From the IMG/VR virus record IMGVR_UViG_3300034198_008895, positions 62,001 through 126,000 of that record: a stretch of DNA of 64,000 bases; one strand, written 5' to 3'. The translations under genes and the position numbers were made by a program. Of this stretch, positions 26,772 to 61,138 are shown one piece after another. Positions within the stretch are counted from its first letter, which is position 1. The number at the start of each line of letters is the position of its first letter. Under the pieces are notes generated by a model. It ran no database searches. It worked only from the letters and a program-made list of their open reading frames with translations, and was not told where the DNA came from. Source of the DNA: a virus.

Positions 26772-28199
26772 TCACTTCTTCTTGGAGAGCCAATACGGAA
26801 CATACTTATCATAGTACATTTCGATTAGATCCATGGTTGAAAGGAATGGGATAGGATGGTCGTATTGATTAAACGTCCAATAATCCCGTGTGTTAAGCAG
26901 AACCTTCCAGTCATACTCTTTGCCAAGTTTCTCGTAGAGAGCTTTGACATCAGGTACTTCAAAAGGAAGATCTTTGTAGTACGTCTTAATCTGGAGAAGA
27001 TCAGCGGTGATCTTAACTGCCCGACGAAGCATTGGGTCAGTATCCAACAAATTACGAATTGTAGTACGTCCTACCTTAACATCAGGATATAGAATCATGT
27101 TATAAGTATCGCGGCTACCCTCAATACCAAAACGGTCATGATCTTTTACATAATTAAATTCAGTCAAAGACGCAAGAACACCTTCAGTCTGAGAAACAAC
27201 CAAGTCAAAACTATAACCACTAGGACCCGACTTATTACGGATCAGCTTAATAGTAACCAAGTTAAGATCGAAACTACCTTCATCGACACGTTCACGAGTC
27301 TTAGGGTATTCCGGACCTTTAGTGGTTTGATTATTAAAGACAGACGAAGACATTGTCTGCCAAAGCAAATTAGACAGATAAAGAAACTTACCAGCTACAC
27401 CCTTAACAACTTCACCAGGCTTCATATGTGGAAGCTGTCGAACAGGTATAGAAGCCATAGGGCCATTACCCATCGGAATATCTTTACCGATATGAGCGGT
27501 CATAATGATATAGTGCGAAGATGCATTACAAACTGGAGGAATCTCCATCAATAAACGCGTCTTAGCCAAACCACCACGCATATGAATTGTATTACCACCA
27601 CTGTCTCCGATTTCATTCTTGTTCTGAATTTCTTCGGTATCGGCGGTTGTAAATTCTGACACACTGTCAAGATCACCAAAGGAAGGAAAAATTGCCATGA
27701 TCGGCTTATTATCCTTATCCATAAAAGGTGTCTCAAGGGTATAGTTTTTTGCATTCTTAATCTTCTCATTTCGTAAGAAGTCTTTCAGAAGCTTAAACCA
27801 CTCATTCCCAAGGTGATAAGTTTTATCTGTAATACTCCAAGCACCTTCTTTAACCAAGTCGATGTCTTTGAAGATTTCAAACTTACGAGAGAGATCAAGA
27901 CAGTGTTCAACGTCAATGTTGATTTCAGTGTCGTAAGTATTGAGATAAGGAAGGAACCCAGATGCCGCTGCTTTGCTTGCAGCAGATAACATCATGTAAC
28001 GAGCAATCTTAGACTTATAGGTGTTGCCTTTACCCATCACAGCGGTGAAGACACTAAGTCCGCCATTCATAATGTTTTCACCGCGTTTGCCGCGAATATA
28101 ACGACCAGTCGGAATATCTAATAAAGCACCGACATTATAAAAAACTTTACAAGGATCAACCTCTTCAAAGGCCGGCTTGTTCTTAAACATTACTTGCAT
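26772..28199 (-). CDS. UvsX/RecA-like recombinase ATPase
   Basis: A 475-residue protein starting MQVMFKNKPA behind TTGGAGATAAAA. It has a UvsX-type Walker A, AVMGKGNTYKSK (Lys62-Ser63), lacking the usual second Gly as in T4 UvsX (GPSKSFKS). Further on are a Walker-B-like FPSFGDLDSVSEF, a SHYIIMTAHIGKD strand (equivalent to the I-x-x-x-H segment) and GVAGKFLYLSNLLW, like the L2/post-L2 region. It ends with a strand pair rich in basic residues (TIKLIRNKSG). The predicted role is ATP-dependent strand exchange in recombination-dependent replication. The position among tail genes is unusual. Confidence 0.65.
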   Translation of the reverse strand: MQVMFKNKPAFEEVDPCKVFYNVGALLDIPTGRYIRGKRGENIMNGGLSVFTAVMGKGNTYKSKIARYMMLSAASKAAASGFLPYLNTYDTEINIDVEHCLDLSRKFEIFKDIDLVKEGAWSITDKTYHLGNEWFKLLKDFLRNEKIKNAKNYTLETPFMDKDNKPIMAIFPSFGDLDSVSEFTTADTEEIQNKNEIGDSGGNTIHMRGGLAKTRLLMEIPPVCNASSHYIIMTAHIGKDIPMGNGPMASIPVRQLPHMKPGEVVKGVAGKFLYLSNLLWQTMSSSVFNNQTTKGPEYPKTRERVDEGSFDLNLVTIKLIRNKSGPSGYSFDLVVSQTEGVLASLTEFNYVKDHDRFGIEGSRDTYNMILYPDVKVGRTTIRNLLDTDPMLRRAVKITADLLQIKTYYKDLPFEVPDVKALYEKLGKEYDWKVLLNTRDYWTFNQYDHPIPFLSTMDLIEMYYDKYVPYWLSKKK

Positions 28200-51769: not shown

Positions 51770-53095
51770 TTACGTTACAAGATCTTTCATTTGAATCGTT
51801 GTAGATTCATTTGTCTTACCATGAGTTAACTGCATAAACAAAGACAAAAGAACACCAGACAGCTCAGATGCAATGTTTGTCACACCTGAAGGAATATCTT
51901 TATAGACTTCATTCATGCACTTATAACAAATTGTATTCTTAGGAGAAGTACAATACATGCTACTTCTAATAACAATCTCTTTTCCAATAAGCGCTTTAGC
52001 TTTATCAATGGAATCAATCAAAGTCCATTTACCATTCAATGCAACATATCGGTTAAGAAGCTTAGGTGCATTATAGTCATTAATAACACGCTTTAAACCA
52101 CGTTTCGTATTACATTCGATAGGTGATATAGATAAGCTAGAAAGAGAGCGTTGTAGGATCTTGTAGGTATATCCACCAAGCTGTGTGGAAGAACCACGAG
52201 CAAAAGAACCAATACGCAAATCATTCATATACTTAGGAAAGTCTTCTTCGTCTGTACTAACACCTTCTAGCAGAGAATTCTGAACAGTCTTTGCGTAAGT
52301 AACCTTCTCAAAGTCCATTGTGTCACCGAAGACCATATACATCTTTCTGCGAGCATTCTTAGACTTCTTATTAAAGATATTCTTAGCAGCAGGATCATCT
52401 GCCAGATAATCATTGTCAATCTTAATCAATGCTTGTTCAAACTCAACAAGCTTAACTGGATCACTAAGTTGACCTTCATATTGTTTCAACAGCTCTTGTT
52501 TTTTCTTAGCCAAATCAGGTGCTGGTGTAATAGCTTTCTTGGTAGAAGCAATATTAATAATGTTAGCTAGGTTGGTTAAGAATCCTAAACGATCAAAACA
52601 ATCAATCATTTCAGAAACACTGATGTCAGTTTCCTTAGCATCCTTGTCACTAACAACCTTTTCAGCAATCATCTTCTCGATTGTACTTACCTTGATCTGT
52701 CCTTCAACATAACCAAGTTTATTTTTAAAAGCAGGATAAAGACAAAGTGCATTAATAATCAGATTACCAAGCTTTGTTTCAAACTTGGAAGTAATGAAAG
52801 GACCCCAAGAAGGATCAACCTGAACGATATCTTGGAATTTGAATAACGGTTCATCTTTAACATAATCAGAAATCTTAGTCAACTGTTTATTGTCAACCCA
52901 AGTTTTAATTGTGTTATCTTTAATATCTACAAAGTAAAGACCATCTGGTTTTGTAACAATATCAAGCCAGTTTTTCTTTTCCCAGTCCGTATCATCTCTT
53001 AACAAAGGGATAGCAAAACAAGAGAAGTACCATGACTTGTTTTCTATTTTATTTGCAGCAAATGCTTTCTTCAGATATTCAAGTTTAGTTAGCAT
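51770..53095 (-). CDS. RNA polymerase beta'-like C-terminal-half protein
   Basis: A 441-residue protein whose landmarks fall in the order seen in bacterial beta' after the catalytic site. There is an ETKLGNLIINALC segment (compare TTVGRALLW), then a KVSTIEKMIAE helix and LGFLTNLANIINIAS. These are followed by a KNARRKMYMVFG segment and a SFARGSSTQLGGYTYKILQRS segment (compare [23 protein letters not shown], the bridge/trigger region). Near the end are RSSMYCTSPKNTICYKC (compare VRS-x-x-x-C-x-x-x-x-G-x-C-x-x-C) and ELSGVLLSLFMQLTHG (compare AQSIGEPGTQLTMRTFH). The NADFDGD magnesium motif is absent and would need to be on another polypeptide. It overlaps the upstream gene by 11 bp. Confidence 0.6.
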   Translation of the reverse strand: MLTKLEYLKKAFAANKIENKSWYFSCFAIPLLRDDTDWEKKNWLDIVTKPDGLYFVDIKDNTIKTWVDNKQLTKISDYVKDEPLFKFQDIVQVDPSWGPFITSKFETKLGNLIINALCLYPAFKNKLGYVEGQIKVSTIEKMIAEKVVSDKDAKETDISVSEMIDCFDRLGFLTNLANIINIASTKKAITPAPDLAKKKQELLKQYEGQLSDPVKLVEFEQALIKIDNDYLADDPAAKNIFNKKSKNARRKMYMVFGDTMDFEKVTYAKTVQNSLLEGVSTDEEDFPKYMNDLRIGSFARGSSTQLGGYTYKILQRSLSSLSISPIECNTKRGLKRVINDYNAPKLLNRYVALNGKWTLIDSIDKAKALIGKEIVIRSSMYCTSPKNTICYKCMNEVYKDIPSGVTNIASELSGVLLSLFMQLTHGKTNESTTIQMKDLVT

Positions 53096-55863: not shown

Positions 55864-57993
55864 ATGCTAGATATCTTCTATCGAGATAAATCTCAGTATC
55901 ATAACCAGCTAAATCCAGTTCGAGGATATCTCGAACAACTGTCTAGTTATATTCAGATTAGTCGTAATGTTTCTAAAGAAGAAGCTGATATTAAAGCTCG
56001 TGAAGTTCTTAAGAAACATTTTAAAGATAAGAACGTTCGTTATTTTGAACGCCAAGAGAACGGTGATCGTGAAGTTAAAGACACTACGCTCTTACAATAT
56101 ATCAATAATAATATCAAAGAAAAGAATGTGCTTGTACCAACATTTACAAGTTACATGAATGCTAATAAGAAAAAGAGTATGTTGTCTGAGTTTATTTTCG
56201 TCAACGTTCGTCGTCGTAGTGTGGCTAAGAAAGCTGGTCAAAAGGCCAAGGCTGAAGGTAACTTAGAACTTGCTGATGCCAAGAATAACGAACAGAATAT
56301 GATGAAGATTTATAATAACTCTTTATCAGGTGCTTTTGCGCAAGCTGCTTGTATTCTTCATAATCCAACAGCTCATTCGACGTTAACAAGCATCACCCGA
56401 ACAATCACAAGTCTGAGTAATGCGAGTAATGAAAAACTTATTGCTGGTAATCGATTCTATCCTCGTGGTACTGATGTTATTAATAATGTCATCTATATTT
56501 CTACTTATGCTGACATTGAAGGCATTCGAAATGTTATTGAGACTTTTGGCTTACACATTCCAACAGTTGAAGAAACGGTTAGCGTCTTAAAATATAGTTC
56601 TGATCTTTATTTTAGAGATGAAAAGTTTTATCAAACTAAGATAATACCTTATCTACAAAAATTATCTTGTTATCATTTAGCTGCTATTTGCTATATCGGT
56701 GATCTATATCATATCCGTAAGTTTAACGATGGATTTATGCGTACAGTTATCAATGAAATGATTCAACCTGTTACTGCTGAAGATACCGATGCAAGTGTTT
56801 GTAAAAATATTCACTCTATCAATGAAAACATTCTAAACTTTGTGCATCATATTTTCTATAGTCAAGCCAAAGGTCAAGGCAAAGACTATGATAAAATGTT
56901 TGCAAGTAAATCTGGTTTAGCTAGCAGTATTTATACAACATCTAAACATGTCGAAGATATTCTTATCAAGTATAAGAGTTTCTTTAACTGTTTCTTTATG
57001 ACTGATATTCTTCCGGGTAATTCTTTCCGTTTGAAGAATATGCGTCGTCGTACAGTTGTTTTGAGTGATACCGACTCTACCTGCTTTACCTTGGATGAAT
57101 GGGTGAAGTGGTTGTATAATGGTGAATTTCGTATTGACGATAAGTCTATTGCTACGACAGGTGCAGTCGCATTTATGGCTGCGCAAGCTATTATTAATCA
57201 GTTAGCTATTCTATCTAAGGGTATGAATATCTCTGATGATCATCTTAACACTTTAGCAATGAAGAATGAGTTCTTGTGGCTTGTTCATGTTCCTGCAGAA
57301 GTTAGTAAACATTATTTTGCTTATACTGTTATTCAGGAAGGTAACGTCTTTAAGGAACCTGATATTGAAGTTAAGGGTGTTCATTTAAAGAATAGTGCTG
57401 TTCCTAAGTTCGTTATTAGTGACGCTAAAGATATCATGAAATACATGTTATCTACGGTGGCTGGTAATGAAAAGATTAAATTTAACTATATCCTTGAACG
57501 CATTATTAATCTGGAAAATAATATTCGGGATAGTGTGTATAAAGGTGAACCTGTTTATCTTAAAAAGTCAAAGATCAAAAATCCAGAAGCTTATGCATTG
57601 GAAGGAATCAAATCTCCCTATGCTCGACATTTGCTATGGAAACAAGTCTTTGCTCCTAAGTACGGTGATATCCAAGATCCGCCGTATGACGTTATTAAGA
57701 TTCCTACAACGATTACATCTAAACCAGCATTGAATGCTTGGATAGAGTCTATTGAAGATAAAGACTTAGCTGCACGTTTAGTTAAGTGGTTAGAAGAGAA
57801 TTGTAAAAAAGATCTTCCAACAATTTATCTTAATAATACATACGTTATGGGTAGTGGTATTCCTGACGAAATTATGCGTATCATTGATATTAAACGAATT
57901 ATTCTAGATGTGACTATTCAACATAGAGTTATTCTTGAAACGTTGGGTGTTATGCTATATAGCGATAAGCTTGTTTCTGAACAATTTAACTAA
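55864..57993 (+). CDS. Family B DNA polymerase, C-terminal part (motifs B and C)
   Basis: A 709-residue protein. Motif B is MKIYNNSLSGAF (Lys148, Asn152, Ser153, Gly156; the usual Tyr before Gly is Ser155). Motif C is VVLSDTDSTCF (Asp402, Asp404). Downstream, VSKHYFAYTVIQEGNVF and GVHLKNSAVPKF correspond to the KKRY and thumb segments of T4-type polymerases. Motif A and the exonuclease are on the protein at 18985-20691. About 250 residues separate motifs B and C, far more than in the T4 enzyme, pointing to an extra inserted domain. Start at 55864 with TAAGGATACG upstream. Together the two genes should provide the replicase. Confidence 0.8.
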   Translation: MLDIFYRDKSQYHNQLNPVRGYLEQLSSYIQISRNVSKEEADIKAREVLKKHFKDKNVRYFERQENGDREVKDTTLLQYINNNIKEKNVLVPTFTSYMNANKKKSMLSEFIFVNVRRRSVAKKAGQKAKAEGNLELADAKNNEQNMMKIYNNSLSGAFAQAACILHNPTAHSTLTSITRTITSLSNASNEKLIAGNRFYPRGTDVINNVIYISTYADIEGIRNVIETFGLHIPTVEETVSVLKYSSDLYFRDEKFYQTKIIPYLQKLSCYHLAAICYIGDLYHIRKFNDGFMRTVINEMIQPVTAEDTDASVCKNIHSINENILNFVHHIFYSQAKGQGKDYDKMFASKSGLASSIYTTSKHVEDILIKYKSFFNCFFMTDILPGNSFRLKNMRRRTVVLSDTDSTCFTLDEWVKWLYNGEFRIDDKSIATTGAVAFMAAQAIINQLAILSKGMNISDDHLNTLAMKNEFLWLVHVPAEVSKHYFAYTVIQEGNVFKEPDIEVKGVHLKNSAVPKFVISDAKDIMKYMLSTVAGNEKIKFNYILERIINLENNIRDSVYKGEPVYLKKSKIKNPEAYALEGIKSPYARHLLWKQVFAPKYGDIQDPPYDVIKIPTTITSKPALNAWIESIEDKDLAARLVKWLEENCKKDLPTIYLNNTYVMGSGIPDEIMRIIDIKRIILDVTIQHRVILETLGVMLYSDKLVSEQFN

Positions 57994-58030
57994 AAAAAAA
58001 GACACTACCGCGAGGTGGTGTCTTTTTTAT
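57993..58030. terminator. Convergent bidirectional terminator
   Basis: AAAAAAGACACTACC/GGTGGTGTCTTTTTT stem closing a GCGA tetraloop on the plus strand; runs of A and T on both sides. Confidence 0.9.
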
Positions 58031-58035
58031 ATTCC

Positions 58036-58359
58036 TTAATCATCAAGGAACTTGGTGTGTTCGTTGACAGCCTTTGCTATGGCTCTGTTTGTCTTACGCT
58101 TGTTAGCGAATGTCTTTACCATAACAAGCGTGTTGATAACAGGAAGCAGAAATACAACAATTGAACAAATCTCAATCGCTGCTTTCATCACAGAGACTTC
58201 GAAACGAAGTCCAGACTGTTGTTCAACTTTCTCAACCGCGTGTTCGGCAGCCGCCACCATTTTGTTATCCCATCGTCCGCGTATCACACTGGCGGTAAAA
58301 CCGATGAAGAAGAACAGAACAGTAACACCATATACAACAAGAAAGATATCTTCAAACAT
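58036..58359 (-). CDS. Early two-pass membrane protein
   Basis: A 107-residue protein with hydrophobic segments at about 8-25 (VVYGVTVLFFFIGFTASVI) and 65-85 (EICSIVVFLLPVINTLVMV), separated by a charged linker. It starts at 58359 behind AAGGAG. Its own early promoter (58388-58415) and a terminator make it a single unit. It may act in the host membrane, for example in exclusion or lysis timing; function unknown. Confidence 0.75.
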   Translation of the reverse strand: MFEDIFLVVYGVTVLFFFIGFTASVIRGRWDNKMVAAAEHAVEKVEQQSGLRFEVSVMKAAIEICSIVVFLLPVINTLVMVKTFANKRKTNRAIAKAVNEHTKFLDD

Positions 58360-58387
58360 GTTTGACTCCTTATCGTTAAGATCTTTT

Positions 58388-58415
58388 ATTATATATGTAA
58401 TTAACTTCTGTTCAA
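58388..58415 (-). promoter_or_regulatory. Sigma70-like early promoter, copy 8
   Basis: Minus strand TTGAAC, 16-nt spacer, TATAAT within TTACATATATAATA. Confidence 0.8.
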
Positions 58416-58444
58416 ATTTACTATTAAAAAATTAATATAGTTAA

Positions 58445-58450
58445 TATAAT
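58445..58450 (+). promoter_or_regulatory. -10 box for the candidate RNA
   Basis: Plus-strand TATAAT 7 nt before the first hairpin of the candidate RNA. No good -35 box is seen. Confidence 0.45.
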
Positions 58451-58456
58451 TATATG

Positions 58457-58692
58457 GACAGAAATGTCGGTGTCTCTCTCTAGGTGCGGAAAAACCGTTC
58501 TGGTAGATTTCGGAAGTTAGGCTGCGCGAAATGCCATATGCCAACACTCTGGGTGCATCCCAATAAAATCTACTATTTGCTTGCTTGTTTCGTCATGGGA
58601 ACTTGTGAGTTGTTGATCTCTAACCATCAGGTATGAGTGAAGCTATGAATCCCCAGGTGACTCACAAGGTCACCTGGGGAATTTATATTTTA
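58457..58692 (+). ncRNA. Candidate structured non-coding RNA
   Basis: A 236-nt stretch with no credible ORF, richer in G/C than the flanks, in the 373-bp gap between divergent genes. Predicted elements from 5' to 3': a GACA-GAAA-TGTC hairpin at 58457-58468; a GCGG/CCGT hairpin at 58486-58498; a 10-bp closing helix pairing 58501-58510 with 58566-58575; inside it a GTT(A)GGC/GCCAAC helix (58516-58522 with 58540-58545) and a TGGG/CCCA hairpin (58550-58562), together a three-way junction; a TTC-TCAT/ATGA-GAA helix (58589-58596 with 58633-58641) with an inner TTGAT/ATCAG hairpin; and a 12-bp terminator at 58650-58680 followed by T-rich sequence. I recognise no known RNA family. Confidence 0.6.
58650..58692 (+). 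terminator. Intrinsic terminator of the candidate RNA
   Basis: TCCCCAGGTGAC/GTCACCTGGGGA 12-bp stem, then ATTTATATTTTATTTT on the plus strand only. Confidence 0.8.
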
Positions 58693-58732
58693 TTTTCCTT
58701 AAAATTCTGTAGTTAATAAAAAGGAATAAGAA

Positions 58733-61138
58733 ATGAAGATCCTGTATCTCATTTTGAAGAACTTCAAACGCATGCCTCTAAGAGACATTGAAGTTTTTGA
58801 GCATCACTTTACTTCTAAGTTGTTAATGGTAACAGGTCCAAATGGTTGTGGTAAGTCATCTTTGTTTAATGAGCTTACACCATTGCCTTCTGATAAGAAT
58901 AATTTCAATAAGAATGGATACAAAGAAATTCATATTGAAAAAGACAGACAGCTGTATAAACTTATTTCTGACTTTACAGATGGAACTAAGTTTTATTTTT
59001 ATGTTGATGATGAGAACTTGAATGCTTCTCATAATGTCACAACACAACGAGAACTTGTCTTTAAGCATTTCGGAATAACACAGACTATCCATGACATCCT
59101 AATCGGTGTCGAGAACTTTACGGAAATGTCTTTGCTTAACCGTAAGAAACTATTTAATTCAATTACGCATTTGAATATTGATGCGATTGTTGATAACTAT
59201 AACAAGTTGAAAGAAGAACACAAAAACAATGAGTTCCTTCTTAAGACTCAAGTATCTTTGTCTCAAGCTGAAGAACAGAAACTTATTAACAAAGATCACC
59301 TGGATAATCTATTAGCTTCACAAAAACAGATTAAAGAGTATATCGATATTCTGCTGGAAATTCGTACAAACATTTATCGTTACAGAAGTGACGTAAGTGT
59401 TAATGAAGCAGCACAGAACTATCTAGATATCATTGAGAAGATTCAGGAAGTAACTCGGACGTATTACACTTATCTGACTTCGTATCCTGAAGACGAACGT
59501 GCACAATTTAAAACTAAGTCGGAACTGGTTAACTATAAGCTCAATGAGTTTTATACGTTGCTAGAATCCAAACAAAAGGAAATTAACATTCTTAATCTAA
59601 ATAAACAGCATGACTTGCAAGCTGTTAAGATTGAGCTTGATGAACTTAAATATAATCGTGTTAAGTTATTGAACAGTTTATTTATGTTCAAGGTTTTGGA
59701 TAGACCTATCGAGTACTTCCGTAATGATATCTTGAAACTCGAGGTATCTTTATTTGAAGTGATTAGAACGATTCCTTTAAATGAGAATAAGAAATTCTCT
59801 AAAGAACGCTATGAAAATATATTAAATCGTAAACAAGAATGTTTGACTGAACTGAATAAAGCTATCACGAGAGAAGCAGAGGTTAATCGTGATATTCAAC
59901 ATCTTGTTACTCATAAAGAAAATGTGATCTGTCCTAATTGTTCTCATGTATGGTCTCCGTTAGATACGGATGTCAATATGAAACAACTTAAGATTGAACA
60001 TAAACATCTTGTTGAAACTATTGCTAAGCTTCAAGCAGAACTTGTACAACTGGATAAAGAGTTGACAGAACTTCTTGAATACTTCGCACTGTATAAACAA
60101 TACTCCATTCTGCGTAATGCGACATATGACAATCTTAGACCTATGTGGAATTTGATTGATCAACGTGAATATATCTTTAAAGAACCGAATGCTATCGGTG
60201 TTATGTTTAGAAATGCAACTATTGAAATTGAACAGTTAGCAACTGCTGAAGAAATGCGCAAACGTATCGAAGAGTTAACTAAGAATGTTGAAGTTCTTAG
60301 AGCAATGAAAGATACTAATGTTGAACATATTGAAAGTGTTATTGAAGAAATCAATGATGAGATCACTGGTCTTTTAGCTGAGAAGGATGAGTTAACAGAT
60401 CACATTCGTAACAACGAGATCTCTGTATCTGCTAGTAAGCTTTTAACTACTGCTAGAAGCATGCTAGAAAGCGCTACAAGCAGTTTACAAGATGCAAACA
60501 TGTCGTTCACTACCGAAGAGGTTTTAAACGTCATAGAGAGCGAACTTAGCAAATATAAGGTTATTCTCATTGAAACTGAGCGTGAGATTAACAACTATAA
60601 TAATATCAAATATACAATTGAAAAGTATAAGAAAACGATTGATGACATTCAGTCGAATATTAAAGTTCTGGATATTATTCTAGACGAGCTTTCTCCGAAG
60701 AACGGTTTGATTGCAAAGTCTGTGAGTAGTTTCTTGAATATTATCATTGAGAATATCAATACGATCATTAATACTGTTTGGGATTACAAGATGATCCTGA
60801 AAGCTATTAATGTGGAAAGTGAAGTATTAAATTATAAGTTTAAAGTTGAAGTTGAAGATAAAATCACGATTGAAGATATCGCCAAGGTATCGTCAGGAAT
60901 GAAGGAAATCATCAATCTTAGCTTTAAGACTTTATTGTATAAACTATTGAAACTTGAACACTATCCTGTGTTCCTTGATGAGTTTGGAGTTAAACTTGAC
61001 AAGGTTCATAGAAGCAAGATTAGTGAACTAGTATTTAAAATGATGAATAGTAATTATTACAGCCAGATCTTTTTGATTACTCATATTGAAACATCGTATG
61101 CGATCTTTAAAGATGTAGAAGTTCTTGAATTAGGATAA
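58733..61138 (+). CDS. SbcC/Rad50-like ATPase, T4 gp46 equivalent
   Basis: An 801-residue protein: Walker A VTGPNGCGKSSLF (residues 34-45), two long coiled-coil arms, zinc hook VICPNCSHVW near residue 400, ABC signature VSSGMKEIINLS near 719, Walker B YPVFLDEFG near 745. This is the full SbcC/Rad50 layout. With a gp47/SbcD-type nuclease it resects DNA ends for recombination-dependent replication. I saw no gp47 partner in this window. It starts at 58733 with AAAAAGGAATAAG and follows the candidate RNA terminator by about 40 bp. Confidence 0.9.
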   Translation: MKILYLILKNFKRMPLRDIEVFEHHFTSKLLMVTGPNGCGKSSLFNELTPLPSDKNNFNKNGYKEIHIEKDRQLYKLISDFTDGTKFYFYVDDENLNASHNVTTQRELVFKHFGITQTIHDILIGVENFTEMSLLNRKKLFNSITHLNIDAIVDNYNKLKEEHKNNEFLLKTQVSLSQAEEQKLINKDHLDNLLASQKQIKEYIDILLEIRTNIYRYRSDVSVNEAAQNYLDIIEKIQEVTRTYYTYLTSYPEDERAQFKTKSELVNYKLNEFYTLLESKQKEINILNLNKQHDLQAVKIELDELKYNRVKLLNSLFMFKVLDRPIEYFRNDILKLEVSLFEVIRTIPLNENKKFSKERYENILNRKQECLTELNKAITREAEVNRDIQHLVTHKENVICPNCSHVWSPLDTDVNMKQLKIEHKHLVETIAKLQAELVQLDKELTELLEYFALYKQYSILRNATYDNLRPMWNLIDQREYIFKEPNAIGVMFRNATIEIEQLATAEEMRKRIEELTKNVEVLRAMKDTNVEHIESVIEEINDEITGLLAEKDELTDHIRNNEISVSASKLLTTARSMLESATSSLQDANMSFTTEEVLNVIESELSKYKVILIETEREINNYNNIKYTIEKYKKTIDDIQSNIKVLDIILDELSPKNGLIAKSVSSFLNIIIENINTIINTVWDYKMILKAINVESEVLNYKFKVEVEDKITIEDIAKVSSGMKEIINLSFKTLLYKLLKLEHYPVFLDEFGVKLDKVHRSKISELVFKMMNSNYYSQIFLITHIETSYAIFKDVEVLELG

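Follow-up and report, generated by a model that had tools for sequence, protein, structure and literature searches.

A G/C-rich non-coding island ending in an intrinsic terminator upstream of the SbcC-like gene of a phiKZ-like jumbo phage

What is the role of a G/C-rich, gene-free stretch that ends in a terminator directly ahead of a recombination gene in a jumbo phage? The DNA analysed here (the window, 64,000 nucleotides) comprises bases 62001-126000 of a record of 163,394 bases and comes from a phiKZ-like jumbo phage; its DNA polymerase gene matches those of phiKZ-like jumbo phages at no more than 35% identity among the matches listed, and its SbcC-like protein matches the same group at about 25% identity among the matches listed. 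A first-pass annotation had described the stretch at 58457-58692 as an unfamiliar structured RNA between an early membrane gene and a gp46-like gene. Both neighbours were named correctly: the downstream gene matches phrog_77, and an early promoter motif precedes the upstream 107-aa gene, for whose product neither Pfam (above the cut-off) nor PHROGs returned a match. The features considered below are as follows.

51770-53095: RNA polymerase beta-type subunit gene
55864-57993: DNA polymerase gene, followed by its own terminator at 57995-58028
58036-58359, minus strand: putative membrane protein gene, 107 aa, coding-like (hexamer score 0.81)
58366-58420, minus strand: early promoter of the 107-aa gene
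58453-58456, plus strand: TATG, candidate late promoter of the phiKZ type (+1 at 58456)
58456-58692, plus strand: the island, a candidate non-coding transcript (hexamer score, G/C 0.445, terminator at its end)
58501-58575, plus strand: proposed three-way junction
58579-58610, plus strand: hairpin, possible attenuator segment 1:2
58644-58692, plus strand: intrinsic terminator with T-rich tail (19 pairs in the fold at 58644-58687)
58707-58718, plus strand: CTGTAGTTAATA element, possibly sbcC's own promoter
58733-61138, plus strand: SbcC-like (gp46-like) recombination gene (phrog_77, E = 3e-53)

The 373-bp interval between the start of the 107-aa gene and that of sbcC (58360-58732) is indeed gene-free and the largest such gap in the window; elsewhere in the genome there are larger ones, of 851 bp and, holding tRNAs, of 712 bp. 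Open reading frames within the island have hexamer scores of -0.23, -0.18 and +0.09, against a yardstick of 0.65 (the 5th percentile for true 50-aa stretches of the same phage), which bears out its non-coding character. We regard it as very improbable that the island holds a small protein gene in the form of a 50-aa frame at 58484-58636 with a GTG start and a cytochrome-like CAKCH motif: this frame is the one scoring -0.23, it has no match in Pfam, and its top PDB and plasmid matches have E values of about 0.6. A 15-base scan did return one contig (L148) with FRKIGCAKCHIPS, resembling FRKLGCAKCHMPT, but this likeness is a product of selecting on an exact 15-mer, and the cytochrome-like peptide was rejected. 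The island is also richer in G/C than its flanks, as first described (0.445 over 58457-58692 vs 0.175 and 0.20, with 0.365 for the window), the boundary is sharp, and over 185 nt its value of 0.47 compares with 0.45-0.53 in the tRNA and tmRNA gaps of the genome.

At its downstream end the island carries the predicted terminator, a stem of 13 perfect pairs (58650-58680) with a T-rich tail on the plus strand only and a T-run weaker than those of many other terminators of the same genome. It is located at least 41 bases upstream of the sbcC start, and a plus-strand transcript probably ends some 42-52 nt ahead of the SbcC gene. Between the polymerase gene's own terminator and this one there is no plus-strand gene. 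Since the terminator has no other plus-strand gene to serve, the island on balance likely gives rise to a short, non-coding, terminated plus-strand transcript.

For the start of such a transcript, the first-pass annotation had pointed to a TATAAT box, which is present at 58445-58450 on the plus strand, but the hexamer occurs 69 times in the window where 80 are expected, and a promoter of this type does not suit a phiKZ-like phage; no sigma-70-like plus-strand site or first hexamer fits this start. Transcription in the phiKZ group relies on the phages' own multisubunit RNA polymerases (PMC7598289), and the early promoter of the opposite gene takes up, and thereby explains, a large part of the A/T-rich sequence preceding the island, so that the box is uninformative. 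The early-promoter motif itself, built around ACATATATAATAATTGA, occurs at 39 sites across the genome record (L002-L010), that of the 107-aa gene included, all of them on the minus strand and none on the plus strand. The published consensus of the phiKZ late promoter is merely T-3ATG+1 (PMC7598289), which the TATG at 58453-58456 fits; because this 4-mer is expected about once per 170 bases and shows no enrichment upstream of the genes of this phage, a start at 58456 is only a suggestion, and late-promoter motif discovery gave no motif. Beyond the terminator, CTGTAG recurs just upstream of sbcC in the window and in the related loci L017 and L029, and may mark a promoter of sbcC itself; CTGTAG as a genome-wide promoter was unsupported.

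How much structure, then, does the island have apart from its terminator? The entire stretch folds better than its shuffles (z = -2.7), an excess due to the terminator, since the body without it (58456-58640, 185 nt) has z = +0.2 and 111-112 of 200 shuffles fold equally well; support for the proposed structured RNA thus goes no further than the terminator and, perhaps, a single hairpin. The GNRA-capped 5' hairpin (GACA-GAAA-UGUC, 4 bp, 58457-58468, plus strand) is present, and such hairpins arise in 2% of shuffles, but it is one pick among many possible features. The 10-bp closing helix of the proposed junction (58501-58510/58566-58575) is likewise literally there, and its pairing probability in the complete RNA is about 0.7; 57% of shuffles, however, contain one or more helices of 10 bp, and the domain as a whole has z = -0.9. 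The remaining hairpin, taken as 58577-58613, reaches z = -3.4 (0 of 200 shuffles), a value uncorrected for its having been picked from the fold among many possible features. Rfam 15 gave no match in the window at the gathering threshold, in agreement with the remark that no known RNA family is recognisable, and a loose Rfam search gave chance matches only, far under family thresholds. The suggested roles as a decoy for RNA polymerase or for the ribosome, or as a packaging RNA, found no backing in any of the results.

A copy of the island was found solely in L015, another contig from this phage, identical over 12,777 bases; this contig ends at window position 58640, just ahead of the terminator hairpin, possibly through an assembly break. 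Searching phage records with 57800-59200 by blastn produced no match, and nhmmer and a covariance model built from the single sequence recovered, from 85 loci and 20 whole records, only the same phage. Relatives collected via the DNA polymerase (80 loci) and SbcC (10 loci) establish that a clade exists, with the island in none of its members, and a single-sequence SbcC scan and an SbcC scan of genome contigs yielded none. The nearest of these relatives, L016, whose polymerase is 79% identical, breaks off at the polymerase gene. Seven phages of the clade were read, and each has a terminator directly before sbcC. The content of the polymerase-sbcC interval varies: L017-L019 carry a fibre gene there and L020 next to nothing, L029 has two ORFs plus a non-coding stretch, and L026, with a polymerase at 73% identity, has an unrelated gene of 130 aa. 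Alignment of the island with those of L020, L029, L017, L026 and L022 was no better than with shuffles; the L020 and L029 stretches fold well alone and are not alignable to it. Exact 15- to 19-mer scans gave chance matches, and an 11-mer common to L026, CCGTTCTGGTA, was also judged to be chance, a two-sequence pattern scan of the collection finding no further phiKZ-like contig. In seven described phiKZ-like phages (phiKZ not among them) sbcC follows an opposite-strand gene after a gap of 68-239 nt. The non-coding stretch of L029 (L029:12954-13335, plus strand) spans about 340 nt and stands with its terminator directly upstream of sbcC in that related phage; it has z = -6.0 with the terminator and -2.95 without, and no credible Rfam match.

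Within the island, an unbroken run of 13 pairs, including four G-U pairs, is possible between the plus-strand segment 58602-58614 and the 5' arm and loop of the terminator at 58656-58668. A competing pairing of this length turns up in 13 of 6000 dinucleotide-shuffled bodies, a figure that overstates its significance because the pairing had been spotted first and tested afterwards, and it ranks second among the 96 terminator-like hairpins of the genome. Together with the hairpin at 58579-58610 and the terminator it makes up the 1:2, 2:3, 3:4 layout of an attenuator. Trp-leader attenuators consist of a hairpin 1:2, a competing pairing 2:3 and a terminator 3:4 ahead of a gene, and the island has the same order of predicted elements before sbcC; unlike them, it has no identified leader peptide, ligand domain or Rfam match, and its competing helix is much weaker than its terminator (-10.8 vs -25.6 kcal/mol for the terminator core). 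The competing helix is never the minimum in folds of growing 5' portions, L020 and L029 lack an equivalent of the pairing, and an energy-based test of competing pairing that took a shorter portion of the terminator's arm found nothing.

We tentatively favour, as the single most likely mechanism though well short of an even chance, an attenuator-type leader before the SbcC gene, in the form of a non-coding plus-strand transcript of about 235 nt. Transcription by the phage late RNA polymerase would begin near 58456 and in most cases stop at the island terminator; a free 58602-58614 would base-pair to the 5' arm and loop of the terminator, allowing read-through into sbcC, and the same segment held in the hairpin 58579-58610 would let the terminator form. 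This reading builds on the non-coding sequence with its G/C contrast, on a strong plus-strand terminator with no plus-strand gene back to that of the polymerase gene, on a competing pairing longer than chance and on the low z of the hairpin; transcription, its start site, the switch, a signal driving it and a dependence of sbcC on it are what the model postulates. The chance-level fold of the body, the weakness of the competing helix, the lack of a homologue, the order in which the pairing was noticed and tested, and the CTGTAG element, which suggests that sbcC may have its own promoter downstream, all count against it. A more specific version, a lineage-specific RNA switch that would act on expression of the SbcC recombination nuclease through antitermination of the phage multisubunit RNA polymerase, seems to us quite unlikely.

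The attenuator leader is ranked barely ahead of gene turnover, in which an older plus-strand gene would have been lost, with its terminator and decayed sequence left behind to insulate sbcC and any RNA made from them incidental. Such a relic, possible but doubtful, would suit an interval in which genes come and go among relatives, a terminator kept just before sbcC throughout the clade phages read, and a body that folds at chance level; no frame, however, matches any protein of the fetched loci or Pfam, and the perfect terminator stem, free of decay, and the sharp G/C boundary count against a relic. Third in rank, though not far behind, is a stand-alone small RNA that would act in trans from its own late promoter and terminator. 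The promoter-like TATG, an upstream neighbour on the opposite strand and a G/C content within the range of the tRNA and tmRNA gaps agree with it, and phiKZ does have phage ncRNAs (PMC8545117), whereas the absence of recognisable structure beyond the terminator, the absence of a homologue and the weak promoter argue the other way.

For the attenuator leader, a comparable case comes from phiKZ, where Gerovac et al. 2021 (PMC8545117) demonstrated by Northern blot an ncRNA of about 180 nt from the p40 5'-UTR, so that this kind of RNA is already known; its second and last stem-loop may cause premature termination (PMC8545117). The likeness is architectural and consists in the non-coding character, a similar length and the position ahead of a gene of a phiKZ-like phage (PMC8545117); unlike our candidate, which is known from sequence alone, the p40 RNA is experimentally shown, and it lies upstream of p40, not sbcC. 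The ncRNA of the PHIKZ298 3'-UTR, about 100 nt long and processed from the 3' end of the mRNA, is also non-coding and has a possible intrinsic terminator at its end (PMC8545117), whereas the gene upstream of the island lies on the opposite strand. If transcribed, the island, described here from the DNA of one phage, would add a candidate to the few ncRNAs known in phiKZ-like jumbo phages; should the competing pairing be functional, this would be an example of attenuation in which the enzyme is a phage multisubunit RNA polymerase and the target a recombination gene.

Other features of the same genome lie outside the window. The 851-bp gap (L009:2218-3068), the largest found in the record, has no ORF of at least 60 aa and no credible Rfam match. 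A phage-encoded tmRNA is located at L003:7667-8103 on the minus strand (bases 27667-28103), with an ARAGORN asterisk flag and the tag AANDAQFAPQLKLAA; because both tmRNA_permuted (102 bits) and beta_tmRNA (96 bits) of Rfam match above threshold, it may be of the permuted form. Beside the tmRNA gene, the non-coding minus-strand stretch L003:8356-8629 has no Rfam match and folds with z = -3.0 (0 of 200 shuffles), and it is a better structured-RNA candidate than the island at 58456-58692.
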